NCBI GenBank assembly: GCA_008012315.1
Contig: SSEL01000004.1
Location: 62,001 to 126,000, forward strand
From: Rhodospirillaceae bacterium
GTDB lineage: Bacteria; Pseudomonadota; Alphaproteobacteria; Dongiales; Dongiaceae
DNA: 64,000 bases
Direction of reading: 5' to 3'
Each line of letters opens with the position of its first letter. Position 1 is the stretch's first letter. Made by a program: the position numbers and the translations under genes. Below the pieces are notes generated by a model. It was given only the letters and a program-made list of their open reading frames with translations. It had not been told where the DNA came from and did not search any database. This document shows, piece after piece, positions 35,716 to 61,061 of this stretch.

Positions 35716-35755
35716 CGATGCTTTTTATGCCTTGGGGGCAATATCACGCCAGATA

Positions 35756-38317: not shown

Positions 38318-38346
38318 TGCCCATCACTCCAAAATAACATTGCTGG

Positions 38347-38374
38347 CCTTGGATTAAGCCCCTTGGATTAAGCC
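38347..38374. repeat. Tandem 14 bp direct repeat
   Basis: CCTTGGATTAAGCC occurs twice head to tail, 30 bp upstream of the DMGDH-like start. It may be a slippage product or a regulator-binding repeat. Confidence 0.8.
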
Positions 38375-38470
38375 CGACTCTATCCAGTGACTTCGCGAAC
38401 CGCGACAGCAATTTGCGAAAACGCGGCAGCCTATATCACAGGCTGAATCTGCCCGGCCGGCTTTTGGCCC

Positions 38471-38502
38471 AACGGGTAATTTAGTTGCAAAATCAACCCG
38501 TT
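38471..38502. promoter_or_regulatory. Inverted repeat, candidate operator
   Basis: AACGGGT and ACCCGTT arms, separated by an 18-base AT-rich spacer, with further near-matching flanks (CCC before, GGG after). It sits mid-way between the divergent flavoprotein and MttB-family genes. Confidence 0.4.
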
Positions 38503-38678
38503 TGGCTGGGCGGTGCGGGGAACGCGTCGAACCCTGCCGGCGGGCGGATGACCGGTGGCGCGAACCGGTAAACCGTTGTCGCTGATCCGCTAGAGGATAC
38601 CGGGCCAAGGTGACGAAATGGCGCTAGAGTCGCCAATTACCTGCGACCACACCCCAATTCATTGAACGAGGCGGTCTT

Positions 38679-40244: not shown

Positions 40245-40274
40245 TCGACGGCTCTTCGATATCCTTCTACGCAC

Positions 40275-40303
40275 AAACCCGGGAGCGATCCCGGGGTTTT
40301 TGC
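40275..40303 (+). terminator. Terminator of the MttB-family gene
   Basis: CCCGGGA (40278-40284) pairs with TCCCGGG (40289-40295) over a GCGA loop, with AAA/TTTTT flanks, 30 bp after the stop codon. Confidence 0.8.
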
Positions 40304-40312
40304 TTTTCCGCT

Positions 40313-40608
40313 TCAGGCTGGGTCGTCGAGGCTAAAAGAGCCGGTTTCGTCGTCGTAGGTAAAGGTGAAAGCAGCGACAATCCCAGCGCCACGAGCATGC
40401 GCAGGGGGGCGGCATAGGCCGGCAGATGCCAGGGGTCCAGCGAGAGCGGCGCCGATTGCATATCGGTCAGCGGCTGGGACAGTTTGCTGCCGGTAACGAC
40501 GAAGAAAACCAGCAGCGCAAGGACGAGCAGCCCCGCCAGAAAATCCCAACGGCCGACGGCCAGCCTGCGCCGGCCGATGGAAAGGGGCGGCAGGATGCGC
40601 TGCATCAT
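40313..40608 (-). pseudogene. N-terminal remnant of a NitT/TauT-type ABC permease
   Basis: From 40608 on the minus strand, the frame reads RRLAVGRWDFLAGLLVLALL, then PLSLDPWHLPAYAAPLRMLV, which matches the start of the long NitT/TauT family permeases as I know them (RWD, PLSLDP..LP.Y, LRM motifs). After about 80 residues the family's FTFTY stretch continues in another frame (FTFTYDDETGSFSLDDPA) and ends. So a frameshift and loss of the remaining ~500 residues are implied. No ABC partner gene is near. Identification is from memory of the family, not a search. Confidence 0.55.
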
Positions 40609-40912
40609 CGGCCGTGCTCCACCAACCGCCAAGCGGCCACCATGGTCACAATTCGGGGAAATCCAACGAGGGATATGCATTTGCCCGTTTGCCTTTCAAC
40701 ATGACAAACCGGGCGATAGCGACGATCAGCGCCCGGTCAGAGGTATTCCTCGATAAGGTCGACTGCCATCGTCCATCTGATGCTTCCTTAAGACGCGATC
40801 CGATCGGTGGGGCCGATCAGCCCCAATGATACCGGCATTGCCATGGAGCAACGCGGCGACCTTTTTGCACATTTAGCTTGCTTGATCCTATCGGCTGGGC
40901 TTACCGGAAGCC

Positions 40913-41467
40913 TCAACCCTGATCGACACTATGCCGTTTGATCAAGGGAAGCTGGGCGAAAATGAACAGGATCGTCAGACCGATAATCCCGAACACCTTG
41001 AAATCCACCCAGAAATCGGTCGATTGCGTCCGCCAGACGATTTCATTGAGCACCGCCATGGCAGCAAAGAAGCAGCCGAACCGGAAGCTGAGGCTGCGCC
41101 AGCCGGCATCGTCCAATTGCAGCGCCCCGCCCATGACATAACGGATCAGGGGCTTGTTCAGCAGCAGGCCGACAAAAAGGATGATGGCAAAAAGCCCTTG
41201 GATTACCGTCGGCTTCATTTTAATGAAGGTGTCGTTCTGCAGCCAAAGCGTCAGGGTACCGAATACCCCGACCACAACCAATGTAATCAAAGGGACAACG
41301 GCCAGCTTCCGGGTAGCCAGGTAAAGCACGGCAGTCGCAATGACCGTCGCAATCAGGAGAACCAATGTGGCCGTCATCAAGCCGGCCATCTTGAAGGCGA
41401 TAAAAAAGGCCAGGATTGGCCCATAGTCGACAGTCGTTTTAAGCCAATTGGGCATTCTGGACGTCAT
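40913..41467 (-). CDS. yciB: Septation protein A, YciB-like inner membrane protein
   Basis: 184 residues with five hydrophobic segments. The opening WLKTTVDYGPILAFFIAFKM and the NKPLIRYVMGGALQLDDAGWRSLSFRFGCFFAAMAVLNEIVWR stretch are signatures of YciB (intracellular septation protein A), linked to envelope and division functions. Starts at 41455 and 41467 are both possible; neither has a strong ribosome site. Confidence 0.88.
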   Translation of the reverse strand: MTSRMPNWLKTTVDYGPILAFFIAFKMAGLMTATLVLLIATVIATAVLYLATRKLAVVPLITLVVVGVFGTLTLWLQNDTFIKMKPTVIQGLFAIILFVGLLLNKPLIRYVMGGALQLDDAGWRSLSFRFGCFFAAMAVLNEIVWRTQSTDFWVDFKVFGIIGLTILFIFAQLPLIKRHSVDQG

Positions 41468-41542
41468 CTGGATCAATTTAGAGTTAGACTAGGGCTATGT
41501 TAGTACAGGCCCCGATGCAAGAAAAAGTGAGTCGAGACCAAG

Positions 41543-42205
41543 ATGAGCAATGCCTTTTTGCAGCGAATTCTGGACCAGAACCGAGAATGGGCACGCCAGA
41601 CCACGGAAGGCGATCCCGGATTCTTTTCCCGCCTGGCGGAACAGCAAGCACCGGAAATCTTCTGGATCGGCTGTTCGGATGCGCGGGTGCCGGCCGACCG
41701 CCTGCTGAATTTGGATCCCGGCCAGGTCTTCGTTCACCGCAACATCGCCAATCTGGTTTATCAGATCGACGTCAATTGCCTCTCAGTTTTAGAATATGCG
41801 GTTAACGTTCTGAAAGTGAAGCATATTATCGTCTGCGGCCATTACGGTTGCGGCGGCGTGCGGGCAGCGGTGGAACGGACCGAATTGGGTCTAATCGATA
41901 ATTGGCTGCGCCAGATCAAGGATATCTATGCCTCGAATGCCCGTGTCCTGGATGCCCAGCCCAGTACGGATAAGCGCCTCAACATGCTGTGCGAATTGAA
42001 CGTGCGTCAGCAGGTGCTGAACATCTGCCACACCTCGATCGTTCAGGATGCCTGGAAAAGAGGCCAGTCGCTCACCGTTCACGGATGGATTTACAGCATC
42101 CGCAATGGGCGGCTGCGCGATCTGGATTTCTGGGTCGATGGCGTGCATGACCTCAATCCGATTTATCAGATGCTGAATGTCGAGGAAGACACGCCGGGTT
42201 TCTAA
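41543..42205 (+). CDS. Beta-class carbonic anhydrase
   Basis: 220 residues. Zinc ligands and active-site pairs are visible: IGCSDARVPADRL (Cys, Asp, Arg) near residue 44 and VCGHYGCGGVRAA (His, Cys) near residue 105. FVHRNIANLV is also conserved. Interconverts CO2 and bicarbonate in the cytosol. It is divergent from yciB and stands alone. Confidence 0.92.
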   Translation: MSNAFLQRILDQNREWARQTTEGDPGFFSRLAEQQAPEIFWIGCSDARVPADRLLNLDPGQVFVHRNIANLVYQIDVNCLSVLEYAVNVLKVKHIIVCGHYGCGGVRAAVERTELGLIDNWLRQIKDIYASNARVLDAQPSTDKRLNMLCELNVRQQVLNICHTSIVQDAWKRGQSLTVHGWIYSIRNGRLRDLDFWVDGVHDLNPIYQMLNVEEDTPGF

Positions 42206-42328
42206 AGGGCGACGCTTCATGTGAAAGCTGAAGCGCGCTCTATCTATCGAGTAGAGACGGATTCAGATCGCACATGCGCTCGCTCCTGCGATACCATGGG
42301 TGATCCGGCTTTGTCTCTTTATGAGGTC

Positions 42329-42372
42329 GCATTTTCTTCACGCGAACCGGTATCCATTTCGCTCGAAAATGC
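42329..42372. repeat. Palindromic intergenic repeat element
   Basis: GCATTTTC (42329-42336) pairs with GAAAATGC (42365-42372) and GCGAA (42342-42346) with TTCGC (42358-42362) around ACCGGTATCC-like bases. This resembles the short dyad repeats with a CGAACCGGT centre scattered between genes in many alphaproteobacteria. Only one copy was seen here. The preceding 120 bp after the carbonic anhydrase gene show no other feature. Confidence 0.5.
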
Positions 42373-42373
42373 T

Positions 42374-43303
42374 CTAATCCGGCGAAACCACCTGTTCCGG
42401 CACGGTGCAGTCAGCGGGGCGCTTGCCCTGCTGTGCCTCGCGATGAGCGATATAGAGGCTGGAGGCGATGATGACGGCGGCGCCGGCCAGCACCTGGATG
42501 GTCGGCAGATCGCCCCAAAACATGTAGCCCAGGATCGTCGCCCAGAACAGCGCGGTATATTCCAGCGGCGCCAGCAATGAGGCCTCGCCGATCTTGAAGG
42601 CGCGGATCATGCAGAGCTGGCCGATGGTGCTGCAGCTTCCTTGAATCAGGAACAGCAGCCAATCCCTTGCACTTGGTGTTTTCCATTCGAGAATGGCAGG
42701 GATGACGGCCGCGAGGCCGCTGAACAACGTCGCGTAGAAGATGATGTTGTAATTCTGCTCTTTGCCGCTGAGCGGCCGCAGCCAAAGCTGGCCGAGGGCA
42801 TAGGTGATGGCTGCGATCAGCGCCAATATCGCACCCCAGGTAACGCCGTGCTGGCCGGGCCGCAGCGCAATGGTCACGCCGATGAAGCCGATCGCGACGG
42901 CAGCCCAACGGCGCGGCCCGACGCGTTCGCGCAGCAGGGGACCGGATAACGAGGTCATGAAAAGAGGTGCGGCAAACGCGATCGCGATGGCATCCGCCAG
43001 TTGCAGATAGCGCAGGCACTCATAGAACGTCCATGTGGTGGCGACGACCAGGACTGCGCGCATCAGATGCGTCGTGATGAAGGTCGTCCGGAATCCGAAG
43101 CATCGGCCGGTGGCGCGATACATGATGAAGCAAGCGGCGATCAGCGGGCAGATGCGCGACAGCAGCAGGAGCTGCCAGGTGCCATAGCCTTCGCCGAGAA
43201 ATTTGGTCACCGCATCGAGAACGGAAAAAAAGAAAACGCCGACGGCCATGAAAATCAGCGCCTGCAACGTGCTTCCCGTTGTCGATGGGGTGGTTGAGTT
43301 CAT
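42374..43303 (-). CDS. EamA-family drug/metabolite transporter
   Basis: 309 residues with ten hydrophobic segments in two EamA repeats: FMAVGVFFFSVLDAVTKFLGEGY opens the first, and YALGQLWLRPLSGKEQ starts the second with ASLLAPLEYTALFWATILGYMFWGDLPT. Substrate unknown. The C-terminus overlaps no other gene but ends against a palindromic repeat. A second DMT transporter of another subgroup is at 60120. Confidence 0.82.
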   Translation of the reverse strand: MNSTTPSTTGSTLQALIFMAVGVFFFSVLDAVTKFLGEGYGTWQLLLLSRICPLIAACFIMYRATGRCFGFRTTFITTHLMRAVLVVATTWTFYECLRYLQLADAIAIAFAAPLFMTSLSGPLLRERVGPRRWAAVAIGFIGVTIALRPGQHGVTWGAILALIAAITYALGQLWLRPLSGKEQNYNIIFYATLFSGLAAVIPAILEWKTPSARDWLLFLIQGSCSTIGQLCMIRAFKIGEASLLAPLEYTALFWATILGYMFWGDLPTIQVLAGAAVIIASSLYIAHREAQQGKRPADCTVPEQVVSPD

Positions 43304-43500
43304 ATTCTACCCTGACACATGTATTTTGTTACCGGCATAGCTGGCCGGATGCCGTTGGACGAGGCTTAGCATGCAGGCTGCATTGGGAGTTCGGCGATTT
43401 GCAGGAGTCGTATATGCAGAACTTGCGATGCCACAGTTCTAAAGTGTAATTTGTAGGAGCTGCCCACCGGGTAGCGGGCGAATGAATTGATGAGGTGTGG

Positions 43501-43908
43501 ATGCCGGGGCCCAGTAGCCGATTTGCCGTTGCAATTCATGTGTTGCTGATCCTGGCCATGCATCCGGGCCGTTCGATATGTTCTGATTCCATCGCCTCAT
43601 CGGTCGGAACCAATCCAGTCTTGATACGGCGGATGATGGGCACGCTGCGATCTGCCGGCTTGGTGGCATCGCGGGCGGGCTCATTGGGCGGTTTCATGCT
43701 TGGCAAGCCTGCGAGCGGCATCTCTTTGGATGCTGTCTATCGCGCCGTGGAAGAGAGTCAGGTCTTCCATCAGCATGAGCCCAATAAAGATTGCCCGATC
43801 GGGCGACGTATCCAGCCGATTTGCCGCAAGGTTTTCTCTGAAGCGGAAATGGCTTTGGTCGACAGCCTGAAGGATAAGACCATCGCCGATCTTGTCGATT
43901 TGGCGTGA
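43501..43908 (+). CDS. Rrf2-family transcriptional regulator
   Basis: 135 residues. Winged-helix segment SSRFAVAIHVLLILAMHPGRSICSDSIASSVGTNPVLIRRMMGTLRSAGLVASRAGSLGGFMLGKP is the Rrf2 signature. Only two Cys in the C-terminal half (CPIGRRIQPIC), so a three-Cys iron-sulfur site like IscR's is not evident. Target unknown. A short TG start at 43495 is an alternative. Confidence 0.8.
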   Translation: MPGPSSRFAVAIHVLLILAMHPGRSICSDSIASSVGTNPVLIRRMMGTLRSAGLVASRAGSLGGFMLGKPASGISLDAVYRAVEESQVFHQHEPNKDCPIGRRIQPICRKVFSEAEMALVDSLKDKTIADLVDLA

Positions 43909-43997
43909 GGCTCAAAAGACTTGTCACCTTAAACATTCACACCGCTGGCACGCTCGAAATTTCCGACCGAGTTCGGCCCGTGACAACCCTGCGTTTT

Positions 43998-44023
43998 TGA
44001 TATATACAATTTTCAATATATCA
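43998..44023. promoter_or_regulatory. AT-rich dyad upstream of membrane protein gene
   Basis: TGATATAT (43998-44005) and ATATATCA (44016-44023) are perfect inverted arms with a 10-base spacer, in a stretch clearly more AT-rich than its surroundings. It could be an operator for the Rrf2 regulator or the next gene. Confidence 0.35.
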
Positions 44024-44106
44024 TAAAAGAATTCAGTCTCAATCGTAGGATTTTCAAGCTAACAATTAGCTGTACAATCCGACCAGCCGTGACTTGGAAT
44101 GGGGAC

Positions 44107-44682
44107 ATGAGTTTAAGCGTCGCAAAAAAGATCACGATATTGATCTTCGTTTTCTGCGCGTTTGTTTTCCCCGCCGTGCTCACTGTTTCCCTTTGGCTTG
44201 TGCCAACGATCTTTGCCAAGGCCAGTGGCGAGGGTGTTTGCGGTTATTTCACGTTGATCGTTGGCGGCATTGCCACGCTTTCATATATGGCCGTGACTCG
44301 GCATTTCGCCGATTACCTTTGCCTTGAATTCTGCCGGGCGGAAAAGCAGTTGGAGCAGCCTGCGCTTGCGGAGCAGCGTAATCGGGCCATCGATCTTATC
44401 GAAGCGATTCAGATGGTGGGAGGCGCCCGGACTTACTATTGGTTTCTCGTGCCGCTTGCCGTGGCGGCGCTGGCCTTTTACGGGGCAGCCCTTTTGATCG
44501 ATCTCTATCTGGCTTTTGCCGCCGCGACATTGCCTTTGGTCTTTATCGCTCTTGTCGTTCTGGCCAGCTCTCTGACGATTTGCCTTGCCTTGCCCTCTAT
44601 CCTGTTTGCGCAAGAGCGCCTGGAACCCGCCGCCATCCTGGCGCGATTCCAGCAGGAAATCGGAACGCGGCATCGCGGATAG
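44107..44682 (+). CDS. Hypothetical four-segment membrane protein
   Basis: 191 residues with about four hydrophobic segments: two near the N-terminus (ITILIFVFCAFVFPAVLTVSLWLV and YFTLIVGGIATLSYMAV) and two after residue 120 (YYWFLVPLAVAALAFYGAALLI and LPLVFIALVVLASSLTICLAL), with a charged cytoplasmic stretch between. No family recognised. The upstream DNA and the first codons are AT-richer than the neighbourhood. GTG at 44089 is an alternative start. Confidence 0.55.
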   Translation: MSLSVAKKITILIFVFCAFVFPAVLTVSLWLVPTIFAKASGEGVCGYFTLIVGGIATLSYMAVTRHFADYLCLEFCRAEKQLEQPALAEQRNRAIDLIEAIQMVGGARTYYWFLVPLAVAALAFYGAALLIDLYLAFAAATLPLVFIALVVLASSLTICLALPSILFAQERLEPAAILARFQQEIGTRHRG

Positions 44683-44683
44683 C

Positions 44684-44710
44684 AAAAGGGCCGCTGGTTT
44701 CAGCGGCCCT
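44684..44710. terminator. Terminator between membrane protein and soxG
   Basis: AGGGCCGCTG (44687-44696) and CAGCGGCCCT (44701-44710) form a perfect 10 bp stem. The AAAA run at 44684-44687 supplies the T-tract for the minus-strand sox transcript, which ends at 44737. Confidence 0.85.
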
Positions 44711-44736
44711 GATTGGTGAGAGGTCTGGTTTGGCCC

Positions 44737-45348
44737 TTACGCGCCGATAGCCAGGCCGAAATTGGTGGCGATCTTTTCCGTCCATTGCCACAGATAGTCG
44801 GAAAAGCTTTTCAGCACATAGATATCATAGCTCGGCTTGTCATCGGTCTGATGCAGCAGCACGTTGCATTTCGACATGCCGGTTTGGGCACATTGGCCCG
44901 GACCGAAGACCTGCGGATGAAGGTCGAGGCTGATGCCGCGCGCCAGGACATCGCGTGCTTTCGCTCCGCTGATGGTGATCACCGTCCGTGATTCGCTCAC
45001 ATCGATGACCGCCGCATGCTGACCCTGAAAAGCCTGGCGGAGGGCAGGGACCAGTTCGTCACTGCGGTCCGGCGTGGTGACGACCCACCATTCGTCCGGC
45101 CCCAGCCAAAGAATGCTGACCTCGCCAGCTTTATTGACCGTGTTGGCCTTGGTCGGCACATCGACGCCAGTGACCGATTTCACCGCATTGGTGAAAGCCG
45201 CGTCATTGGCATCACCACGAATATTGATGATCGTGCGATGGGCGCTCTCGCCCAGGATCACGCCGGCCGTGGCATGGCCGCCTTGATTGGCACGCGCCGC
45301 CAGGCCGAAGTGATTGAGGGCGCTCCGCCGCTGATAGGCTTCAACCAT
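44737..45348 (-). CDS. soxG: Sarcosine oxidase gamma subunit
   Basis: 203 residues. Gamma subunit of heterotetrameric sarcosine oxidase, identified by its IWLGPDEWWVVTT core and position after soxA. It opens 8 bases inside the end of soxA, so the two are translationally coupled. Part of the enzyme that oxidises sarcosine to glycine and passes the methyl to tetrahydrofolate or releases formaldehyde. Confidence 0.88.
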   Translation of the reverse strand: MVEAYQRRSALNHFGLAARANQGGHATAGVILGESAHRTIINIRGDANDAAFTNAVKSVTGVDVPTKANTVNKAGEVSILWLGPDEWWVVTTPDRSDELVPALRQAFQGQHAAVIDVSESRTVITISGAKARDVLARGISLDLHPQVFGPGQCAQTGMSKCNVLLHQTDDKPSYDIYVLKSFSDYLWQWTEKIATNFGLAIGA

Positions 45349-48300
45349 TGATGCGCTTTCCTTCCAAATCGAAGAATTTGGGCTCGGTGATCCTGGCGGG
45401 GATCACTTTGCCTTCGTAAGGCAGATAGACCGTTTCGCCCATGCGGTTGCGGCCATTCTTGACCAGGGCAAGAGCGATCGAGCGGTTGCAGTTCGGGCTG
45501 TAATAGCTCGAGGTTACATGGCCGATCATGTCCATCGGCGGCTTGTCCTTGACATGCGCCACGATCTGCCCGCCTTCCAGCAGCACTTCGTTCGGATTGT
45601 CGGTCAACAAGCCGACCAGATGCTTGCGGTCCGGGCGCTTCGTATCCTCTCGGGTGAGCGAGCGGCGGCCGAGGAAATCGGTCTTCGATTTCGCCATGAT
45701 CCAGCCCATGCCGAGATCATAGGGCGTGATCGTGCCGTCGGTTTCCTGGCCGACGATAATGAAGCCCTTTTCGGCGCGGAGCACATGCATGGCCTCGGTG
45801 CCGTAAGGGGTGATGTCGTACTTCTCGCCAGCCTGCATCAACGCGCGCCAGATATGCAAGGCATGCGACGGCTTGCAGTTTACCTCGAAGGCCAACTCAC
45901 CAGTGAAGCTGATGCGGAAGATCCGCACCGGCACGCCGGCCAGATGGCCGTCCTTGAAGGACATGAAGGGGAAACTGTCATCGTCGAGCGGGATATCCGT
46001 CGTCAATTCCTCCAGCAGCTTCCGCGACAGGGGACCGTTCAGCGCCATGACCGACCACTGTTCGGTGACGCTGGTGAAGTAGACCTTCTTGTCCGGCCAT
46101 TCGCACTGATGCCATTCCTCCAGCCAGCTCATGACGCGTGGCGCACCGCCGGTCGTGGTGGTCATGTGGAAATGGTTTTCCGAGATACGGCTGGTGACAC
46201 CGTCATCGAAGACCATGCCATCTTCGCCCAGCATCAGGCCATAGCGGCAGCGGCCGGGCTCTAGCTTGGTCCAGGCATTGGTATAAACCATGTTCAGGAA
46301 CCAGGCGGCATCCGGACCCTGGATGTCGATCTTGCCGAGCGTCGTCGCATCGACGATGGTGACGCCGGTACGGGCGGCCTTCACTTCGCGGTTGACCGCG
46401 TCATGCATGCTTTCGCCCGGCTTCGGATAGTAATAGGGGCGGTGCCACTGGCCGACGCATTCGAAGACGGCGCCGTGCTGCTCGTGCCACTGATGCATCG
46501 CCGTCTTGCGGATCGGATCGAGGAAATCGCCCTTGTCGATGCCCGAGAAGGTGCCGAGGGTGACCGGCGTATAAGGTGGGCGGAAGGTCGTCGTGCCGAC
46601 CGATGGGATTTCGACATTGCGCAATCCGGCCATGATCGCCAGGGCATTGACGTTGCTGGTCTTGCCCTGATCGGTCGCCATGCCCATCGTGGTATAGCGC
46701 TTGAGGTGCTCGACCGACCGGTAACCTTCACGATGCGCCAGCATCACGTCGGCCGCCGTCACGTCGTTCTGGTAATCGACGAAATGCTTGCCGCCCTGGC
46801 CGACCGGCTTGTCGCTCGGCACGATCCAGACGGGCAACAGCGCTTCTTCCGCCGGTTCGTCCGAGACAGTCGGCGCCTGGCCGCTTTGGCCACCGAAGCC
46901 CAACTTGGCGGCGCCTTCGCTGCCGGCGGCATGACCTTCGGCCAGGCAGTCCGCCAAACGGAAGACGCCATGAGCCCCGCCGATCGACCGGTTATTCTGG
47001 CCCGGCAGCTTGTCGCCGGGAACGAAGGCTTGGATGTCGTCGCTCCAAACAACCTTGGCGCGGGTCTGGGAATGCAGATGAACCGTCGGCTGCCAGCCAC
47101 CCGAGGACAGGACCAGATCGCAATGGATATGGCGGCTGGCGGAGGTGACGCCTTTGCCATCGGCCGTCAGCGGCATGACATCGACACCGGTCACGGCGAG
47201 CTTGCCTTTGACGCCGGTGATGGCATGGCCGGCAATGATCTCGATACCTTTGGCGCGAGCCGCCTTGACCAGTTCGCCTTGCGGATTGGACCGCAGATCC
47301 ACCACGGCAAAAACCGTCACGCCGGCATCGGTCAGATCCAGGGCTGTGCGGTAGGCGCCGTCATTATTTGTCATAATAACAGCGCGTTGTCCTCGCATGC
47401 TACCATAACGGTTGGCATAGGTGCGAGCGGCCGAAGCCAGCATGCAGCCCGGTCGGTCATTGTCGCTATAGACCAAAGGACGCTCGATAGCGCCGGTCGC
47501 CAGGATGACTTCCTTGGCGCGGACCCGCCACAGTCGCTGGCGCGGTTGATTGGCGCCAGCCACCGGGCCGAGGTGATCGGTGACACGCTCCATCAGGCTG
47601 ACAGAATTATGGTCGTAATAGGCCCACGCGACCGTGCGCGACAGCAAAGTCACGTCCGGCATCGCTGTCAATTCGGCGACGGCAGCGGCCACCCAGTCGG
47701 CGGCCGCTTTGCCGTCGATCTCCGCGGTGCGTTCGGACAGCAGTGAGCCGCCCAGCTCCTGCTGCTCATCGACCAGGATGACACGTGCGCCGGTGCGGCC
47801 GGCGGCGAGCGCCGTCGCCAGGCCGGATGGGCCGGCGCCAATGATCAGCAGGTCGCAGCTGGCATAGAGCTTGTCATAGCGGTCCGGATCCTGTTCGGTC
47901 GGGCCCTTGCCCAGGCCGGCCGCCTGGCGGATGAATTTTTCGTAAAACATCCAGGCCTTAGCCGGCCACATGAATGTTTTGTAGTAGAAGCCGGAGGGGA
48001 TGAATTTCTGAATGACGCTGTTGGCGGCGCCGAAATCGGTGGTCAGGGACGGCCAGCGATTCTGGCTTTCCGCGACGAGGCCGTCATAAAGCTCGATCTG
48101 CGTCGCCCGAAGATTCGGCTCCGTCCGGTCGCCGAGTCCGAGCTGGATCAGCGCATTCGGCTCTTCCGCGCCGGCCGACAGGATGCCGCGCGGGCGGTGA
48201 TATTTGAAGCTGCGGCCGACCAGCGTCACGCCATTGGCCAGCAAGGCCGAAGCCAGCGTATCGCCCTGATAGCCGTAATAGATCTTGCCGTCGAAGGTGA

Positions 48301-48364
48301 AGCGCAGCGGCTTGGTCCGATCGATGCGGCCGCCTTGTCCGAGGCGGTTCTTCTGCGCGGTCAT
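45341..48364 (-). CDS. soxA: Sarcosine oxidase alpha subunit
   Basis: 1007 residues. N-terminal ferredoxin-like fold (KPLRFTFDGKIYYGYQGDTLASALLANG), an NAD-binding Rossmann motif (LLIIGAGPSGLATALAAGRTGARVILVDE near residue 172), a Cys-rich-region-free middle, and a C-terminal GcvT-like folate domain (over the last ~400 residues, including the FRISFTGELAFEVN and GTEAMHVLRAEKGFIIVGQETDGT stretches). Length fits SoxA (~970-1000). Overlaps soxD by one base and soxG by eight. Confidence 0.92.
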   Translation of the reverse strand: MTAQKNRLGQGGRIDRTKPLRFTFDGKIYYGYQGDTLASALLANGVTLVGRSFKYHRPRGILSAGAEEPNALIQLGLGDRTEPNLRATQIELYDGLVAESQNRWPSLTTDFGAANSVIQKFIPSGFYYKTFMWPAKAWMFYEKFIRQAAGLGKGPTEQDPDRYDKLYASCDLLIIGAGPSGLATALAAGRTGARVILVDEQQELGGSLLSERTAEIDGKAAADWVAAAVAELTAMPDVTLLSRTVAWAYYDHNSVSLMERVTDHLGPVAGANQPRQRLWRVRAKEVILATGAIERPLVYSDNDRPGCMLASAARTYANRYGSMRGQRAVIMTNNDGAYRTALDLTDAGVTVFAVVDLRSNPQGELVKAARAKGIEIIAGHAITGVKGKLAVTGVDVMPLTADGKGVTSASRHIHCDLVLSSGGWQPTVHLHSQTRAKVVWSDDIQAFVPGDKLPGQNNRSIGGAHGVFRLADCLAEGHAAGSEGAAKLGFGGQSGQAPTVSDEPAEEALLPVWIVPSDKPVGQGGKHFVDYQNDVTAADVMLAHREGYRSVEHLKRYTTMGMATDQGKTSNVNALAIMAGLRNVEIPSVGTTTFRPPYTPVTLGTFSGIDKGDFLDPIRKTAMHQWHEQHGAVFECVGQWHRPYYYPKPGESMHDAVNREVKAARTGVTIVDATTLGKIDIQGPDAAWFLNMVYTNAWTKLEPGRCRYGLMLGEDGMVFDDGVTSRISENHFHMTTTTGGAPRVMSWLEEWHQCEWPDKKVYFTSVTEQWSVMALNGPLSRKLLEELTTDIPLDDDSFPFMSFKDGHLAGVPVRIFRISFTGELAFEVNCKPSHALHIWRALMQAGEKYDITPYGTEAMHVLRAEKGFIIVGQETDGTITPYDLGMGWIMAKSKTDFLGRRSLTREDTKRPDRKHLVGLLTDNPNEVLLEGGQIVAHVKDKPPMDMIGHVTSSYYSPNCNRSIALALVKNGRNRMGETVYLPYEGKVIPARITEPKFFDLEGKRING

Positions 48365-48660
48365 TACTTCTTCTCCGTATCGATCTGCGGTGCCGGCTTA
48401 CCCATTTCATAGACGGCGAGGATTTCGTGGGTCACGGTGTGACGTGCCACGTTGAACCAGCGCCGGCAGCCTTTAGTGTGAACCCAGCGTTCGAAGTGAA
48501 CGCCCTTCGGGTTCTTGCGCATGAAGAGATACTGAGCCCATTCGGCATCCGACATCTGCTCGTATTCGGCCGGGGTGGGGCGGACGATATGCGCCTCATG
48601 GCCATAGCCGAATTCGTGTTCGTCGCGGGCGCCGCAGTAAGGGCAGGTGATGAGAAACAT
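48364..48660 (-). CDS. soxD: Sarcosine oxidase delta subunit
   Basis: 98 residues. Zinc-binding subunit; ligands C6 and C9 (TCPYCG) and H61 and C65 (VHTKGC) match the known SoxD site. EFGYGHEAHIVRP and RKNPKGVHFERWVH are family stretches. It links the alpha and beta subunits in the tetramer. Confidence 0.92.
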   Translation of the reverse strand: MFLITCPYCGARDEHEFGYGHEAHIVRPTPAEYEQMSDAEWAQYLFMRKNPKGVHFERWVHTKGCRRWFNVARHTVTHEILAVYEMGKPAPQIDTEKK

Positions 48661-48677
48661 GGCTTTTGCCTCAGATA

Positions 48678-49931
48678 TCAGTGAGCCACGCCAGCGGCGC
48701 CGTGCTCGTCAATGAGATAGCCGGTGGTGAAACGTTCCAGGGCAAAGGGAACGGCCAGCGGATGCGGTTCGCCGCGCGCGATCGTATGGGCGAAGACATT
48801 GCCGGAACCCGGCGTCGCCTTGAACCCGCCCGTTCCCCAGCCGCAATTGATGAACAGGTTCTGCACCGGGGTCTTGCCGATGATCGGGCTGGCATCCGGG
48901 CAGGTATCGACGATACCGCCCCATTGCCGCATCATCCGCAACCGGCTGAAGGCCGGGAACAAATCGCAGAGAGCGTTCAACTGGTTCTCGACGATCGGCG
49001 GGCTGCCGGCCTGGGCATAGGAGTTGAAGGCGTCGATGCCGGCGCCCAGCACCAACTCGCCCTTATCCGACTGGCTGACATAGACATGCACCTGTGGTGA
49101 CATGACCACGGTGTCGAGGATCGGCTTGATCGGCTCGCTGACCAGAGCCTGCAGCGGATGGCTTTCCAGCGGCAGGCGGAAGCCCGCCATGCCGGCGATG
49201 ACGCCGCTATGGCCGGCAACGACGACGCCGACCTTCTTGGCGCCGATGAAACCACGGGTGGTTTCGACGCCCTGGACGGTGCCGTTGACGATCTTGAAGC
49301 CGGTGACTTCGCAATTCTGGATGATATCGACGCCACGCTCATCGGCGCCGCGGGCATAGCCCCAGGCGACCGCGTCATGGCGCGCCGTGCCGCCGCGCCG
49401 CTGGAAGCTGGCGCCCATGATCGGGTAGCGGGCATTCGGCGAGCAATCCAGCATCGGCACCAGTTCCTTGATCTGAGCCGGCGTCAGGATCTCGGAATCG
49501 ATGCCGTTGAGCTGAATGGCGTAGACGCGGCGGCGCAGCGCCTGCATGTCGTGGACCGTATGGGCCAGGTTCATGATGCCGCGCTGGCTGAACATGACGT
49601 TGTAATTCAGGTCCTGGGACAGGCCTTCCCACAGCTTCAGGGCATGTTCGTAGAGATGCGCGGATTCATCCCACAGGTAATTGGAACGGACGATCGTCGT
49701 GTTCCGGCCGGTATTGCCGCCGCCGATCCAGCCCTTTTCCAGGATGGCCACATTGGTGATGCCATGTTCCTTGGCGAGATAATAGGCGGTCGCCAGACCA
49801 TGGCCGCCGCCACCGATGATGATCACATCATAGGCCGGTTTGGGATCCGGGCTGCGCCAGGCTTCCTGCCAGTCGGCGTGGTAGTTCAGGGCATTCCGTA
49901 CCAGAGAGAAAATCGAATAGCGTTGTTTCAT
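48678..49931 (-). CDS. soxB: Sarcosine oxidase beta subunit
   Basis: 417 residues. DAO-family FAD domain with [20 protein letters not shown] near residue 36 and the FAD-binding [13 protein letters not shown] stretch; C-terminal [40 protein letters not shown] is typical of SoxB. It carries FAD and the covalent FMN site of the tetramer, where sarcosine is oxidised. First gene of soxBDAG, 17 bp before soxD. Confidence 0.93.
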
Positions 49932-50360
49932 GGAGATAACCGGCCAATCGGTTGAGACTCAGTTTTTCAGCGGTCGCATCCTGCCAAACGGTTAAGAGCG
50001 ATTCCGGCGGTCAAGCGCCACGTATTGTCCCGCCCGCGTCTCGCGGTCAAGTAGTATGAGAGGGCTAATCGCATGACTTTTTTACAGAATTCATTAAACA
50101 GGCAGCAATACCGCCGGATCGCCCCGTCCGGCGGGCTTAAAGCGGACCGCAGCGTCGGTCAGGGGCGAAGATTTTTCGTATCCGCGACATAAAGGCCTAG
50201 TAAAAATCCGGAAAATTTGGTCTATTCTCGCCGCTCAATGTCTTGTCCACGGCGGGGTCAGTCAGGGAGGGCTTGACCGATCGCCTCGCGCCTGAAGGGT
50301 TGAAAAAACCATCGGTGGATCGTGGACTGTTAGCGACATTGATGAGGATGAGGACCTCAC
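49932..50360. other. Divergent intergenic region between sox operon and regulator gene
   Basis: 429 bp without a gene. A perfect hairpin, CCGCCGGA (50111-50118) with TCCGGCGG (50127-50134), lies in what would be the sox leader. No T-run follows it on either strand, and I could not recognise a glycine or folate riboswitch. The GbdR-like regulator binding sites would be expected here. Confidence 0.5.
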
Positions 50361-51374
50361 ATGTTTGGCGCATTGCCATCAAAGCTGCCGCAGCAGATTG
50401 CGTTTCTGCTGGTGCCCAACTTTTCCATGATCGCTTTTACTTCTGCCGTCGAGCCATTACGTCTCGCCAACCGCGTCAGCGGCCGTGAGCTTTACCACTG
50501 GCATCTGTTTTCGCCGGATGGCCAGCTGGTCAATGCCAGCAACGGCATCAATCTGACGCCGGAAGGAGCGGTGGATCAGATCACCAACTACCAGACCGTC
50601 GTCCTTTGTAGCGGCGTCGACGGCCATCTCTTTGATGATAAAGCCGTTTTTGCTGCACTTCGGCGGGTTGACCGGCAGGGTGCCGATATCGGCGCGCTTT
50701 GCACCGGTAGCCATATTCTGGCCCGGGCCAACATGCTGAACGGCTATCGCTGCACCATCCACTGGGAAAATCTGGCAAGCTTTTCGGAGAATTTCCCCGA
50801 AATCGAGACCACCTCGGAGCTCTTCGAGATCGATCGGAACCGCTTCACCTGTTCGGGCGGGACGGCGGCTCTCGACATGATGCTGAACATGATTTCGCAG
50901 CAGCACGGCCATGAACTGGCGGCGGCGGTTTCAGAGCAGTTCATCCATGAGCGCATCCGCGACCGCCATGACCATCAGCGCATGGCGCTGACGGCCCGGC
51001 TGGGCGTTCGCCATCCGAAGCTGATCCAGGTCATCCAGTTGATGGAAGCCAATCTGGAAGAGCCGCTGAGCCGGAGCCAGTTGGCCGATGCGGCCGGCCT
51101 GTCCAGCCGACAGATGGAGCGCCTGTTCAGCAAATACCTGCACCGGTCACCGGCCCGGTACTATGTCGAACTGCGGCTCAATCGGGCCAGGCTGCTGCTG
51201 CTGCAGACCAATATGTCGGTCATCGACATCGCCTTGGCTTGCGGCTTCGTCTCGGCGTCGCATTTCTCGAAATGCTATCGCGACTTCTTCGGCAAGACGC
51301 CACGTCGCGAACGGGCGACACCCTCGGCCTTGCGGGATGCGGAGCTGCTGGCCATGGAAGGCGTCATCAACTGA
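50361..51374 (+). CDS. GlxA/GbdR-like AraC-family regulator
   Basis: 337 residues: an N-terminal DJ-1/PfpI-like amidotransferase domain (QIAFLLVPNFSMIAFTSAVEPLRLANR, then LCTGSHILARANML with a Cys in the elbow position) and two C-terminal AraC helix-turn-helices (LSRSQLADAAGLSSRQMERLFSKYLHRSPARYYVELRLNRARLLLLQTNMSVIDIALACGFVSASHFSKCYRDFFGKTPR). The GlxA family includes GbdR, which activates dimethylglycine/sarcosine genes; divergence from soxBDAG fits that role. GATGAGGACC precedes the start. Confidence 0.85.
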   Translation: MFGALPSKLPQQIAFLLVPNFSMIAFTSAVEPLRLANRVSGRELYHWHLFSPDGQLVNASNGINLTPEGAVDQITNYQTVVLCSGVDGHLFDDKAVFAALRRVDRQGADIGALCTGSHILARANMLNGYRCTIHWENLASFSENFPEIETTSELFEIDRNRFTCSGGTAALDMMLNMISQQHGHELAAAVSEQFIHERIRDRHDHQRMALTARLGVRHPKLIQVIQLMEANLEEPLSRSQLADAAGLSSRQMERLFSKYLHRSPARYYVELRLNRARLLLLQTNMSVIDIALACGFVSASHFSKCYRDFFGKTPRRERATPSALRDAELLAMEGVIN

Positions 51375-54605: not shown

Positions 54606-55487
54606 GTGCGCAAGCTGTTTCGTCTTCCCTCCATTCTTGCCGCGATCTTTGCCGGCAGCCTTTGCGCCCCGGCGGCCTTTGCCGCCGATGTGACCTTCAC
54701 CGCGACCATGGGGCATGACGGTGATCAGATTAAGACGCCGGTCACCTGGACGGTCACGAAACTGGACAAAGCAGGCAAGCCGGAAGCCAAACCGACGGCA
54801 GTGCAGACTGGTTCGACATTCCATGGCGCATTGAAAACAGGCCATTACGTCATCTTGGCGCAGAGCCAGGGAATCGCAACGAAGGAGAAGGTTTTCGTCG
54901 GCTCCGACAAGCTTTCCCACAACGTTGTCATGGGCTTGGCCCATATCACGCTGAACATGATCGCCAGCCGTGGCCGCAAGCCCATCACCGAACCGATTGA
55001 ATGGGAAGTCTACACCTATCAGAAGGGAAAGACCGAAGCCGGCGTCATGGTCGACAAGTCCAAGGGGTCGACTGCGAGTTTCTCGCTCATGGCCGGCGGC
55101 TATGTGGTGCGGGCCAAATATAAGGACACCAAAGCCGATCTGGTCGTGCCGCTGATTGCGGGCCAATCTTATGATTATACCATCAATCTCTATGCCGGTT
55201 ACGCCAAGCTGGCTGCGGTTGCCGGCAAGAAGGCCGTCACACAGAAGGTCACGTATCAAATCGTGCGGCAGAAGCCGAACGAGAACGGCGAATATGAATT
55301 GATCGCCGAAAAGGAAGGCGCGACACCGAATGTCATGCTGCGCGAGGGCAATTACGTGTTGATCGCGCGTTACGGCAAGATGTGGGGCCGTGAGGACCTG
55401 GCGGTCCAGGCCGGCCAGACCAAGACGGTTAAGGTGACCGTGCGGGAAGGCGTCGGCGCGCCGATCGTGATATCTTCCGCCAACTGA
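54606..55487 (+). CDS. Secreted protein with three Ig-like repeats
   Basis: 293 residues, GTG start with AAGAGGTT before it. A signal peptide (PSILAAIFAGSLCAPAAFA-AD) leads into three repeats of about 80-90 residues, each with a (P)V/I-TW-x-V or EWEV strand and a G-x-Y-V-I/V-x-A motif: HYVILAQSQG near residue 82, GGYVVRAKYK near 162, GNYVLIARYG near 255. This looks like beta-sandwich or carboxypeptidase-regulatory-like domains exposed in the periplasm. Function unknown. Confidence 0.62.
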   Translation: MRKLFRLPSILAAIFAGSLCAPAAFAADVTFTATMGHDGDQIKTPVTWTVTKLDKAGKPEAKPTAVQTGSTFHGALKTGHYVILAQSQGIATKEKVFVGSDKLSHNVVMGLAHITLNMIASRGRKPITEPIEWEVYTYQKGKTEAGVMVDKSKGSTASFSLMAGGYVVRAKYKDTKADLVVPLIAGQSYDYTINLYAGYAKLAAVAGKKAVTQKVTYQIVRQKPNENGEYELIAEKEGATPNVMLREGNYVLIARYGKMWGREDLAVQAGQTKTVKVTVREGVGAPIVISSAN

Positions 55488-55514: not shown

Positions 55515-55542
55515 AAAGGCCGCCTCCGGGCGGCCTTTTTGC
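55515..55542 (+). terminator. Terminator of the secreted protein gene
   Basis: AAAGGCCGCC (55515-55524) and GGCGGCCTTT (55529-55538) pair perfectly with loop TCCG, followed by a T run. Confidence 0.9.
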
Positions 55543-55724
55543 TTGCCGGCCGGACACAGGCGGCTTGCTCAATTCAAAAAACACAATCGCTCATGATTAA
55601 ATTGCGCCGACCGGCTGCTTGTCAGATGTCCGGGGGAGTGTTTGAGTGCTGTGATAACGAAAAGGTTGATGGCCAGCCCGATCAAGGAACCGGTTGGCTG
55701 TCCAATGGCATGGGAGCATGATCG

Positions 55725-57251
55725 ATGTCGCGTGAACAAAGGGTCCGGCGTGAGCGGCGCGGGGGCGATAAAGGCCTGAAACAGTTGCCCTGGCGGCAAT
55801 ACCGCAATCCCTACAAGCCGATCGAGGTCGTGTCGGCAGATCAGCTCGAAGCCATTCATCAGGCGTCCTTGCGGATCCTCGAGTAAATGGGCATCGAATT
55901 CCTCGATGCGGAGGCCCGGGAAATCCTCAAGGAAAAGGGCGCCGATGTGGTGCCCGGTTCCGATCGCGTCCGCCTGGACCGGCATATGGTGAGCGAATAT
56001 GTCGCCAAGGCGCCGTCGCAGTTCACACTGCATGCCCGCAATCCGGCGCACAACCTGATTTTCGGCAAGGACTACATCAATTTCGGGTCGGTCGCCTCGG
56101 CGCCGAATGTCTCGGATCTCGATCGTGGCCGGCGGCCGGGCAATTTCGATGATTACGCCGATCTGATGCGCCTGTGCCAGAGCCTGAACGTGGTGCAGTT
56201 CATCGGCGGCTATCCGGTGGAACCGGCCGATCGTCCGCCCTCGACGCGCCACCTCGATGCGCATTATGCGGCGATCACCCTGACCGACAAGATCTGGCAT
56301 CCCTATTCGCTGGGCCGCCATCGGATCGAGGATGCGATCGAGATGATCTGCATCGCGCGCGGCATCGATAAAGACCAGTTGCGGCGCGAGCCAAGTCTGT
56401 TCTCCATCGTCAACAGCAATTCTCCGCTGCGTCTCGATATCCCGATGCTGCAGGGCCTGATGGCGATGGCACGCCACGGACAGCCGGTGGTGCTGACCCC
56501 CTTTACCTTGAGCGGCGCCATGGCGCCCGCGACGATTGCCGGTGCCCTGGCGCAGCAGAATGCCGAGGCCCTGGCGGGCATTGCTTTCATTCAGATGGTC
56601 AATCCCGGCGCGCCCTGCGTCTATGGTGGCTTCACCTCGAATGTCGATATGAAGACCGGCGCCCCGGCCTTCGGCACGCCGGAATATACCCGTGCCGCGC
56701 TGGTCGGCGGGCAATTGGCGCGCAAGCACGGCCTGCCTTACCGCTCAAGCAATGCCTGCGCCGCCAATGCCGTCGATGCCCAGGCGGCCTATGAATCGGA
56801 GATGTCGATCTGGGGCGCCGTCATGGGCCACGCCAATCTCATTCTACACGGCGCCGGCTGGATGGAGGGCGGCCTGGTTGCGTCCTTCGAGAAGATGATC
56901 GTCGATGCCGAGATCATCCAGCATATGGGCGAGTTCCTGCAGCCGCTGGAGGTCAATGACGACACGCTCGGCCTCGATGCCATCCGTGAAGTCGGTCCGG
57001 GCGGCCACTTCTTCGGCTGTGCGCATACCTTGGCGCGGTATGAGACCGCTTTCTATGCGCCGATCCTGTCGGATTGGCGGAACTTCGAGAACTGGCGACT
57101 GGCCGGCGGGCTGGATACCGCCCAACGTGCGAATAACCTGTGGAAGCAGATATTGCGCGACTACACACCACCGGCCCTCGATCCTGCCCGCGATGAAGCG
57201 CTGCAAGCCTTTGTCGCCAAGCGCAAGGAAGAGGGCGGGGTGCCGGCTTAA
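55725..57251 (+). pseudogene. MttB-family methyltransferase gene interrupted by TAA at codon 54
   Basis: The gene starts at ATG 55725 (GGGAG eight bases before) and encodes 53 residues ending in QASLRILE, then TAA at 55884-55886, directly followed by ATGGGCATCGAATTC, which encodes MGIEFLDAEAREIL and runs 454 codons to 57251. The intact paralogue at 38679 reads TILQEVGIEF at the same place, with Glu where the stop sits, so one G-to-T change (GAA to TAA) would explain it. All remaining barrel segments are intact (FTLSGAMAPATIAGALAQ, GGFTSNVDMKTGAPAFG). Either recent pseudogene, sequencing error or reinitiation at 55887. The stop is TAA, not amber, and is N-terminal. Confidence 0.85.
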
Positions 57252-57278: not shown

Positions 57279-58226
57279 CTAATCCGATTGCGGATGCAAC
57301 AGCGGTTCCTTCGCCGTGAAGGCGTGGCGCCCGAATAATCGGCGATAGCCGGGCACGACATAGTGTTCGGCTTGGGCAGTCAGCTCCGGCTTACGCAGGC
57401 GATAGCGTGCCGGCCGCTTGTACCAGGCAAGGCCCGGTTCGTCGTGATGCACGACATGCAGGTTGTTATAGAGGAAGAGCCAGCTCCAGAACCGGCCCGC
57501 CTCGCAGATCACTGTGCGGCCCCTGATGGATGCATGGGCGCGATGTTCGGCAAAGGAACGCACCAAGGCGAGCGCCGTGCCGGGATAGGCAAATCCGAGC
57601 ACATAAACCCAAAGCGGAATGCCACAAACAACCAGCACCCAGTAGAGGATCAAGGCGGCCGCCGGCAAATGCCATGCCCAGGCCCGCAAAACGGCGAGGT
57701 TGCAGCGCAGCAGCGCATTGGTCAGGTCGTGTAAGCCCATCACCGCATAGTAGATCGGTCCGAAAATCATGCGGCCCAGCAGCGGCCGCATCGCTTGGCG
57801 CATCAGCCGATGGAAGGGCGACATCGCCAGCCATTGCGTCTGGGTGAGGTAATTGGATTCCGGATCGATCGAGGGATTGGTCAGGTTTTCGTCGATATGG
57901 TGCTGGAGATGGGCGCTGCGATAATTGAGATAAGGCAACCAGAGCCAGAGCGGCCAGCCGACAATAAAGCTGTTCACAGCCGTCCAGCGGGTCGGATAGC
58001 CATGCGTGCCTTCGTGCTGCAACGATCCGTGAAAAGCAACGATGACGGTGCCGAGCGGACAGACGACCCACCAGGGCAGATAATGATAGGAAAAGGTGAT
58101 GAGGAGGAAGGAAAAGTAAATCCCGTACGCCAAAGTCAGAGTTGGCCAATCGATCCGATACGCATGGCGACCGAAGTCACCTTTTCTCTGGCCGGCACCA
58201 AGGACCGGCGGCATACGCGTTTCCAT
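57279..58226 (-). CDS. Membrane fatty acid desaturase-type protein
   Basis: 315 residues with four hydrophobic segments. The three His boxes of membrane diiron desaturases are seen: HEGTH, HLQHH and HVVHH (in LHVVHHDEPG), which suit a desaturase or hydroxylase of the fatty acid type. It converges on the interrupted MttB gene with a 27 bp gap. Substrate unknown; chain desaturation of membrane lipids is the default family role. Confidence 0.8.
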   Translation of the reverse strand: METRMPPVLGAGQRKGDFGRHAYRIDWPTLTLAYGIYFSFLLITFSYHYLPWWVVCPLGTVIVAFHGSLQHEGTHGYPTRWTAVNSFIVGWPLWLWLPYLNYRSAHLQHHIDENLTNPSIDPESNYLTQTQWLAMSPFHRLMRQAMRPLLGRMIFGPIYYAVMGLHDLTNALLRCNLAVLRAWAWHLPAAALILYWVLVVCGIPLWVYVLGFAYPGTALALVRSFAEHRAHASIRGRTVICEAGRFWSWLFLYNNLHVVHHDEPGLAWYKRPARYRLRKPELTAQAEHYVVPGYRRLFGRHAFTAKEPLLHPQSD

Positions 58227-58310
58227 TTTCCTCTGTTATACACGCCTGTATATACAAGTAATAACCGCTTGACGAATTGGGATCAAGCGGCAAGTTGCAA
58301 CCAAGCTTAA

Positions 58311-59291
58311 ATGTCGTCGGTTAAGAAAAGCATAGCGACCGATTGGGTGACAGCGAGATTAACTGGGGAGGGCCTGAAGTTGAGCTCAATACCGGCAACC
58401 GCCCTGGCGGAAATTCAACCCACTGATCGGCACGCCTCGGGGCAGTGCCTGTGCGGCGCTGTGCGCTATGAGATCGAGGGGGCCCTCTCGCCGCCTTCGG
58501 CCTGCCACTGTGGCATGTGCCGGCGGCATCACGGCGCTTTAGGCGTTTTTACCGGTGCGCCGGTGACGGCCTTCCGCATCCATGGCGCGGATCATGTCGG
58601 CTGGTACCGTTCGTCGCCCGAAGCCGAACGTGGCTTCTGCCGGCAATGCGGTAGCAAATTATTCTGGCGGCAGATCGATAGCGACCGGCTGGATGTGACG
58701 ATGGGAAGCTTGCACGAGCCGAGCGGCCTGCAGCTCGATCATCATATCTGGGTCGCCCATCGCGGGGATTATTACGACATCGCCGATGGCCTGCCGAAAT
58801 ATGCGGAATCCGCTGTCGGTCATGGGGACCGCGCGGTACTGGAAGGGCATCGGCCGGCACCGGTTCCCTCGGTGCATGAGGGTGGCTGCCTGTGCGGTGC
58901 GATCCGTTTCAAAGTCTCTGGCAATATGCGCGACGTCGTTGTTTGCCATTGCGGCCAGTGCCGGCATTGGCATGGCCACGCGGCCGATTACAGTGCGGCG
59001 CGAACGGCCGAGATGACCTTGCAGGGTGAAGCCGCACTTTCCTGGTATATCTCGTCGCCAGGCGCAGAACGCGGCTTCTGTCGACATTGCGGCACGAGCC
59101 TGTTCTGGCGCGCCGCGACCGAGGGGGCAGCACCAGCCAAGATTTCCATATCGGCGGGAGCACTTGACGGTCCGACAGGGTTGCAGACGGTCAGGCATAT
59201 TTTCGTGACAGACCTCCCCGATTACTACGACATCCCAGGCGATGCGGCACGTGATGCCGGCAGCATGGCATCCAACCCGGTGGCATTCTGA
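58311..59291 (+). CDS. Protein with two tandem GFA (glutathione-dependent formaldehyde-activating type) domains
   Basis: 326 residues with two GFA-type zinc domains in tandem: CLCGAVRYE, CHCGMCRRHHG and CRQCGSKLFW in the first, CLCGAIRFK, CHCGQCRHWHG and CRHCGTSLFW in the second. Most family members carry a single domain. The namesake enzyme activates formaldehyde with glutathione; most relatives are uncharacterised. The surrounding demethylation pathway produces formaldehyde, which makes the name plausible, but this is inference. No strong ribosome site for ATG 58311. Confidence 0.78.
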   Translation: MSSVKKSIATDWVTARLTGEGLKLSSIPATALAEIQPTDRHASGQCLCGAVRYEIEGALSPPSACHCGMCRRHHGALGVFTGAPVTAFRIHGADHVGWYRSSPEAERGFCRQCGSKLFWRQIDSDRLDVTMGSLHEPSGLQLDHHIWVAHRGDYYDIADGLPKYAESAVGHGDRAVLEGHRPAPVPSVHEGGCLCGAIRFKVSGNMRDVVVCHCGQCRHWHGHAADYSAARTAEMTLQGEAALSWYISSPGAERGFCRHCGTSLFWRAATEGAAPAKISISAGALDGPTGLQTVRHIFVTDLPDYYDIPGDAARDAGSMASNPVAF

Positions 59292-59311
59292 ATAAAAGGA
59301 AAGATTGCCAC

Positions 59312-60115
59312 ATGATCATGGGTTTGCCGATGTATGCCTTGCCGGAAGTGTCGCGGGCGACACTGGATTGGTGGATCGGTCTCTGTCGCCATTTCCGCCA
59401 GGCCGGCATCGATGATTTGCCGCTGACGATGGTGGAGCCGGGCGATCTATACGAGCATTGGCGCCAGCCATCTCTTCTGTTCACCCAGACCTGCGGTTAT
59501 CCGCTCACCCACAATCTGGCCGGTCAGGTGCAACTGGTGGCGACGCCATGTTACCGGGCGCCTGGATGCGAGGGATCCACGTATCGGAGTTTTGTCGTCG
59601 TCCGGGATGATGACGCGATCGAAGACCTGGAGGATCTAAAAGGCAAACGCGTGGCCTTCAACAGCCGGGATTCCCAGTCGGGCTACAATTGCCTGCGCCA
59701 TCTCATTGCGCCTTTGGCGCAAGCGGGCCGTTTTTTTGAGATGGCGGTGGAAACTGGCGGCCATCGAAGATCGCTTGCCGCCGTGCGGCAGGGCAAGGCG
59801 GATGTCGCCTCGATCGATTGCGTCAGCTATGCGTTGATTGCTGCGGTTGCGCCCGGCGAGGTTGCCGGCATTCGTGTCTTGTGTGAGAGCGCGCTGGCGC
59901 CGAACCTGCCTTACATCACGGATGCGGCGACATCGGCACAGAAGCTCGCCCGGTTGCAAGACGGCTTGCGCGCTGCAGTCGCAGATCCTCAGTTGGCAGC
60001 GACGCGCGAGACCCTGCTTATCAAGGATGTTACGGTCTTGCATCGCGACGTCTATGACGTGATTTTGTCAATGGAACGTGCTGCAATCGACGCCGGATAT
60101 CGGGATTTGGATTAG
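59312..60115 (+). CDS. PhnD-family substrate-binding protein without signal peptide
   Basis: 267 residues. The PhnD-like type 2 periplasmic binding fold is seen in the LLFTQTCGYPLTHNLAGQVQLVATPCY, DLKGKRVAFNSRDSQSGYNCLRHLI and AVRQGKADVASIDCVSYAL segments. The protein starts MIMGLPMYALPEV with no signal peptide, so it is either cytoplasmic (a sensor or chaperone) or misstarted; the family is normally exported. No phosphonate permease or ATPase adjoins. Co-transcribed with the GFA and DMT genes (20 and 4 bp gaps). Confidence 0.75.
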   Translation: MIMGLPMYALPEVSRATLDWWIGLCRHFRQAGIDDLPLTMVEPGDLYEHWRQPSLLFTQTCGYPLTHNLAGQVQLVATPCYRAPGCEGSTYRSFVVVRDDDAIEDLEDLKGKRVAFNSRDSQSGYNCLRHLIAPLAQAGRFFEMAVETGGHRRSLAAVRQGKADVASIDCVSYALIAAVAPGEVAGIRVLCESALAPNLPYITDAATSAQKLARLQDGLRAAVADPQLAATRETLLIKDVTVLHRDVYDVILSMERAAIDAGYRDLD

Positions 60116-60119
60116 ACCC

Positions 60120-61061
60120 ATGCCAGCAATGAATAAAAAGAACGGGACGACCCTGCCGATGATCGCGGTGCTGGTTGCTGCGGCACTTTGGGGCAGCTTC
60201 TGGATCCCGTTGCGTCAGATTACGGAAACCGGCATTTCCGGCGCCTGGGCAACGATGCTGGTTTATGGCGGCCCACTGCTGCTGATGTTGCCGGTTGTTC
60301 TTCTCCGTTGGAACCGGATCGGCAGCTTCGGGTTGGGCGCCCTTTGGGTCGGCGGTGCATCGGGCATATGCAACACGTTTTACGGCATGGGCTTCATTGA
60401 GGGAGAAGTCAGCAAGGTCATGCTGCTTTTCTATCTCAACCCGATCTGGGCCGCCTTGCTGGAACGGACGATCCTGAAAACCCCGATCGCGCGTTCACGC
60501 CTGCTGACGATCCTGCTGGGCTTTCTCGGCATGGCCGTGCTGGTCAGCGGCAATGGCTCGCTCCTGCCGCTGCCGCGCAACATCTCCGAATGGTTCGGCG
60601 TCATCGCCGGGTTCTTCTGGGCCCTCAGCATGGTGGGCATGCGGTATACGGGTGAGGGGGATATCATCCCGAAATCCTGCTACCAGTTCCTCATCGGCCT
60701 CGTGGGCTGCGGCATCATCCTGGTATCAGGTTTGTTCCCGGGTGAGCTGCTGCCGCCACCAGGCCAGTTTGCCGCCGCCATGCCCTGGACCGCCATTACC
60801 GTCTTCCTGTGGATCTTCCCGACCATGCTTCTGGCTTTCTGGGGGATCAGCTTCATGTCACCCTCGAAAGCATCCATCCTCTTCATGCTGGAAGCGATTG
60901 TCGGCGTGGTCTCGGCGGCCATCCTGACGGATGAGCCGTTCGGCTGGCGCGAGATCGTCGGCGGCCTGCTGATCCTTAGCGCCGCCTTGTTCGATATCCT
61001 GTTTACCGGCGGCGATTCAGATACGGTGAACGGCAACTGCAAACTGGAAGCAGCGGAATAG
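60120..61061 (+). CDS. EamA-family DMT transporter
   Basis: 313 residues with ten hydrophobic segments, first EamA repeat starting at LVAAALWGSFWIPLRQITE and the second near ISEWFGVIAGFFWALSMVGMRYTGEG. ATG at 60120; a second Met follows at 60129. Overlaps into tusA at 61062 with no gap. Substrate unknown; membership of the GFA-PhnD-TusA unit is the only context. Confidence 0.8.
   Translation: MPAMNKKNGTTLPMIAVLVAAALWGSFWIPLRQITETGISGAWATMLVYGGPLLLMLPVVLLRWNRIGSFGLGALWVGGASGICNTFYGMGFIEGEVSKVMLLFYLNPIWAALLERTILKTPIARSRLLTILLGFLGMAVLVSGNGSLLPLPRNISEWFGVIAGFFWALSMVGMRYTGEGDIIPKSCYQFLIGLVGCGIILVSGLFPGELLPPPGQFAAAMPWTAITVFLWIFPTMLLAFWGISFMSPSKASILFMLEAIVGVVSAAILTDEPFGWREIVGGLLILSAALFDILFTGGDSDTVNGNCKLEAAE

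Follow-up and report, generated by a model that had tools for sequence, protein, structure and literature searches.

Genes of the MttB superfamily (PF06253) include those of pyrrolysine MttB, in which a TAG is read through, and a non-pyrrolysine branch. Genes with an early stop are also known among nonsense pseudogenes, some of which have an in-frame start shortly after the stop; restarts seen after early lacI nonsense mutations are the textbook case. In M. barkeri MttB, the TIM barrel comprises residues 82-395, and the hexamer is stabilised by N-terminal strands and a subdomain formed by residues 23-81 (PMC9842639). In bacteria, translational restart is common at short intercistronic distances, and its dependence on Shine-Dalgarno (SD) pairing has been stressed (PMC5972666). 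The gene described here occupies positions 55725-57251 of the window, a 64,000-nucleotide stretch from the genome of a Dongia-like alphaproteobacterium. By a profile match across its whole length, it belongs to the non-pyrrolysine branch of the MttB superfamily and is a predicted methyltransferase; its frame is broken by a premature TAA, which is probably a nonsense mutation of recent date, one of several breaks that have lately arisen in genes of this organism.

The TAA is codon 54 of the frame that opens at ATG 55725, and a second ATG (55887-55889) directly abuts it. Downstream, the frame is open until TAA 57249-57251, which gives 454 residues counted from the second ATG. The chain starting there matches PF06253 on its own (632 bits, profile positions 53-500), and a Pfam search of the organism's own genome reads through the stop to give a near-full match (profile 4-500, with '1 TAA' inside). 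The score against TIGR02369, the TMA methyltransferase equivalog, is 293 bits and lies below the cut-off of 525. The frame contains no TAG, the TAA at codon 54 being its sole stop before the end, and an Rfam search at the stop site matched no RNA element. Conserved coding sequence lies on both sides of the stop in a single frame, and the synteny is conserved; the stop therefore interrupts a real gene rather than a chance frame, and its presence in the sequence is confirmed. A homology scan for further breaks returned many shadow frames; within the syntenic, homology-covered part of the window, the stop at 55884 is the sole gene break judged real.

Table 1. Positions of features in and around the interrupted mttB-like gene (window coordinates)
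Feature	Position	Strand	Remarks
Betaine-homocysteine methyltransferase (BHMT-like)	34493-35608
Protein with GcvT/SoxA-like C-terminal half	35759-38317
Intact MttB paralogue	38679-40244
Sarcosine oxidase soxG, A, D, B	44740-49931
GbdR-like regulator	starts 50361
Terminator-like inverted repeat and T run, 3' of upstream gene 54606-55487	55515..55538		10-pair stem, 7 GC
SD-like GGGAG stretch, 5' of original start	55709..55714	+	duplex energy -6.5 kcal/mol
5' part of mttB-like gene, 53 codons (MSREQ...SLRILE)	55725..55883	+	65-77% identity to 15 orthologues; differences biased to third positions; no relaxation
Premature TAA	55884..55886	+	replaces a codon that is Glu in 15/15 family orthologues
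Main gene part, open from the ATG abutting the stop, 454 aa	55887..57251	+	PF06253 53-500; 46 near-invariant columns without deviation

The locus is a true orthologue of loci in related genomes. GbdR, two small genes, mttB, an opposite-strand desaturase, and GFA, PhnD-like and EamA genes recur: Dongia deserti and PB1.008 have them all, D. mobilis has most of them and strain R-7 some. The mttB gene, at 78-82% identity, is better conserved than most neighbours, which show about 40-60%, GbdR being an exception at 87-94%. After mttB, window positions 57279-61061 encode the desaturase (opposite strand), a protein with two GFA (formaldehyde-activating) stretches, a PhnD-like binding protein and EamA; the order mttB-desaturase-GFA-PhnD-like-EamA is kept across Dongia relatives and mostly so in Pelagibius. 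The surroundings of the broken gene also include a glycine-betaine catabolic cluster (34493-51374), in which the protein with the GcvT/SoxA-like half is perhaps a dimethylglycine dehydrogenase. The terminator-like site between mttB and the upstream gene was called on the minus strand (10-pair stem, 7 GC), and by eye the plus-strand copy of the repeat also ends in TTTTT. This repeat suggests that the mttB-like gene may form its own transcription unit.

Full-length orthologues, 75-82% identical, were found in 15 other genomes of the family, and at the stop column all of them have Glu, encoded by GAA or GAG. Among 84 relatives complete at that column, the residue is Glu in 48, Asp in 24 and Thr in 7, with a few others; none has a stop there and none is split at that point. 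In all 84, the frame is continuous through the N-terminal helix, whereas here it is interrupted. The codon after the stop column specifies Ile, Leu or Phe in the 15 family orthologues and Met in none, and Met occurs right after the column in only 1 of 85 relatives. The combination of stop and adjoining start was sought in the 15 orthologues and the 84 relatives, among which is no second species of its genus, and was found in none of them. The lesion thus has the mark of a nonsense pseudogene, namely a stop without counterpart in orthologues in conserved synteny.

Drift would be expected in the 53 codons ahead of an old stop. On a tree of the C-terminal part, the tip branch of the window gene is 0.194 for the N-terminal part and 0.132 for the C-terminal part, a ratio of 1.47, compared with 1.83 over the whole tree. 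By this measure, the 53 codons change no faster than their counterparts in intact relatives, and the N-terminal part is not relaxed. Codon differences in this part fall predominantly on third positions (33 of 51 in the comparison with R-7), the same pattern as between intact relatives, and none of 46 near-invariant columns shows a deviation in this gene. Taken together, the normal rate, the third-position differences and the preserved columns indicate that both parts were constrained until very recently; the conservation of the N-terminal part means that the lesion is either very young or a base error. An earlier sequence-only reading had described a TAA at codon 54 with conserved MttB sequence in the same frame on both flanks, Glu at that spot in the intact paralogue (as is the case in the copy listed in Table 1) and an otherwise undamaged frame, and had taken the event to be recent or the protein to be still working; the analysis agrees with it on the stop, the flanks, the Glu, the undamaged frame and the recency.

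The explanation that we favour is that of a young nonsense mutation. As conservation shows, the gene was maintained until very recently as a normal enzyme of ~508 residues. The original start is strong, its SD pairing being among the best 11% for ATGs of the window; translation from it would end at the TAA after 53 residues, and the full-length enzyme would be lost. Some ribosomes may start again at ATG 55887, yielding the whole catalytic barrel without the N-terminal arm and the first helix, and this product would probably be made at a low level and be poorly assembled. The genome (5.72 Mb in 93 contigs) contains seven full-length PF06253 copies and one fragment at a contig edge, and the in-frame stop is confined to one of the seven; the broken copy is 43% identical to the nearby intact copy and 58% to its closest paralogue. 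Its loss was likely tolerated owing to the six full-length paralogues and other betaine-catabolic genes. Automatic annotation would report an intact 454-residue MttB protein for what appears to be a truncated, probably inactive copy; beyond this point of annotation, the broken gene has little significance.

The strongest alternative, though an unlikely one, is that ribosomes reinitiate, or start afresh, at ATG 55887 and produce a 454-residue methyltransferase that works without the arm and helix of the N-terminus. Given the rarity of Met at this column, the ATG abutting the stop in the TAAATG arrangement is unusual and leans slightly towards a useful restart. In an AlphaFold model of the read-through sequence (mean pLDDT 93), residues 1-16 are disordered, residues ~20-37 form an ordered arm, and residues 38-55 form the confidently predicted first helix. 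The stop is placed at the last turn of this helix, and the chain from ATG 55887 would begin just before the predicted strand 57-59, which speaks for the restart. The truncated chain is itself predicted at a mean pLDDT of 94.0, a confidence score that does not demonstrate stability or activity. Residue 41 of M. barkeri MttB aligns with residue 2 of the 454-residue form; given that the N-terminal region of the archaeal enzyme serves oligomerisation and its barrel begins only at residue 82 (PMC9842639), the catalytic barrel would be left intact by a restart, at the cost of part of the assembly region. Restart over short distances is frequent in bacteria, but the same source stresses SD dependence (PMC5972666), and the SD-like pairing at ATG 55887 (-3.3 kcal/mol) is median, about half of the ATGs in the window being equal or better. 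The lost segment also includes the invariant Leu52 and is kept in 84 of 84 relatives, and the N-terminal part is still conserved as a portion of the longer protein. The proposal of the sequence-only reading that translation could reinitiate behind the stop stands in so far as ATG 55887 is a possible start giving 454 residues; production of a working short protein from it is hypothetical. If such a form were active, the MttB catalytic barrel would work without the arm and helix that belong to the assembly region of archaeal MttB.

Several other genes of this genome (G000) are broken in a similar way. An aldehyde dehydrogenase gene (L120, G000:C29:36646-38007, minus strand) has one in-frame TAG (MGKPYA*AMGEL), and no further damage was noticed; judged by the family consensus, this stop may be a former Glu codon. 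In a 400-kb sample of the genome, an ABC permease gene and a LysR-family gene (L123 and L127; G000:C79:23571 and C79:117839, both minus strand) carry one in-frame TAG each, which Pfam matches span in both, and the LysR-family gene may have an additional frameshift near its N-terminus. A frame change breaks a Peripla_BP_6 gene (L121, G000:C54:86340-87357), and an SBP_bac_5 gene for a periplasmic binding protein (G000:C45:114034-115126) is divided between frames. As for relatives, about 100 full-length MttB genes had no in-frame stop, Aldedh genes had 1 stop among the matches listed, and the same scan of a 360-kb sample returned only operon junctions or candidates judged unconvincing by eye, with no clear break. 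The pseudogene search covered samples of G000 and its relatives. The damage rate was 2/25 in G000 and 1 in about 220 in relatives (Fisher p about 0.03, with approximate counts and few events). These results fit a modest load of apparently recent pseudogenes in G000, the difference from relatives being modest as well. A mutator phenotype through loss of mutY was considered, as both the Aldedh stop and that at 55884 are compatible with mutation of a Glu codon, and was dropped: mutY is present and intact. Since several genes are similarly broken, the stop at 55884 needs no special explanation.

These breaks also bear on the somewhat less probable alternative that the TAA is due to a wrong base in the assembly, the gene being intact in the living organism. 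One substitution would be enough, the genome is a 93-contig draft with an estimated contamination of 3.7%, and it has several further single-stop and frameshift breaks. However, 150 short ABC_tran domains checked in G000 had no stop inside, and the nonsense lesions seen in the sample would then imply a rate of substitution errors that is high for a consensus of short reads. A nonsense lesion is favoured for the 55725-57251 gene, a base error being less likely. It is more doubtful still that stop and new ATG became fixed as a pair, so that a 508-residue MttB enzyme turned into one that consists of the barrel only, is produced by restart and assembles differently.

That the cell produces both the 53- and the 454-residue piece and that these join to form a single enzyme is very improbable: the N-terminal part still looks constrained and the break is placed at a predicted helix end, but a recent stop accounts for the same conservation, none of the complete relatives has such a split, and the small piece is predicted to consist of about 16 disordered residues followed by one arm and one helix. 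An old, maintained split is rejected on the absence of such a split from the 84 relatives and on the normal evolution of the N-terminal part.

Compared with known systems, the gene is alike in predicted fold to the glycine betaine methyltransferase MtgB (PDB 9YCE/2QNE) and the S. meliloti protein 4YYC (Foldseek TM 0.89-0.90, 38% identity). It resembles non-pyrrolysine MttB methyltransferases in its near-invariant columns, its length and, when read through, its N-terminal helix; unlike them, it would give only a 53-residue product from its native start. With pyrrolysine MttB genes, it shares the superfamily and an in-frame stop, but this stop is a TAA, lies in the N-terminal helix rather than the barrel, and occupies a Glu column of relatives; the single stops of the other broken genes are TAG in unrelated families, and recoding of the stop, as pyrrolysine or otherwise, is rejected. 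With lacI-type nonsense cases, the gene shares a single early stop, an intact downstream frame and an adjacent start. The broken mttB-like gene is ordinary in kind, and most likely a recent knock-out.
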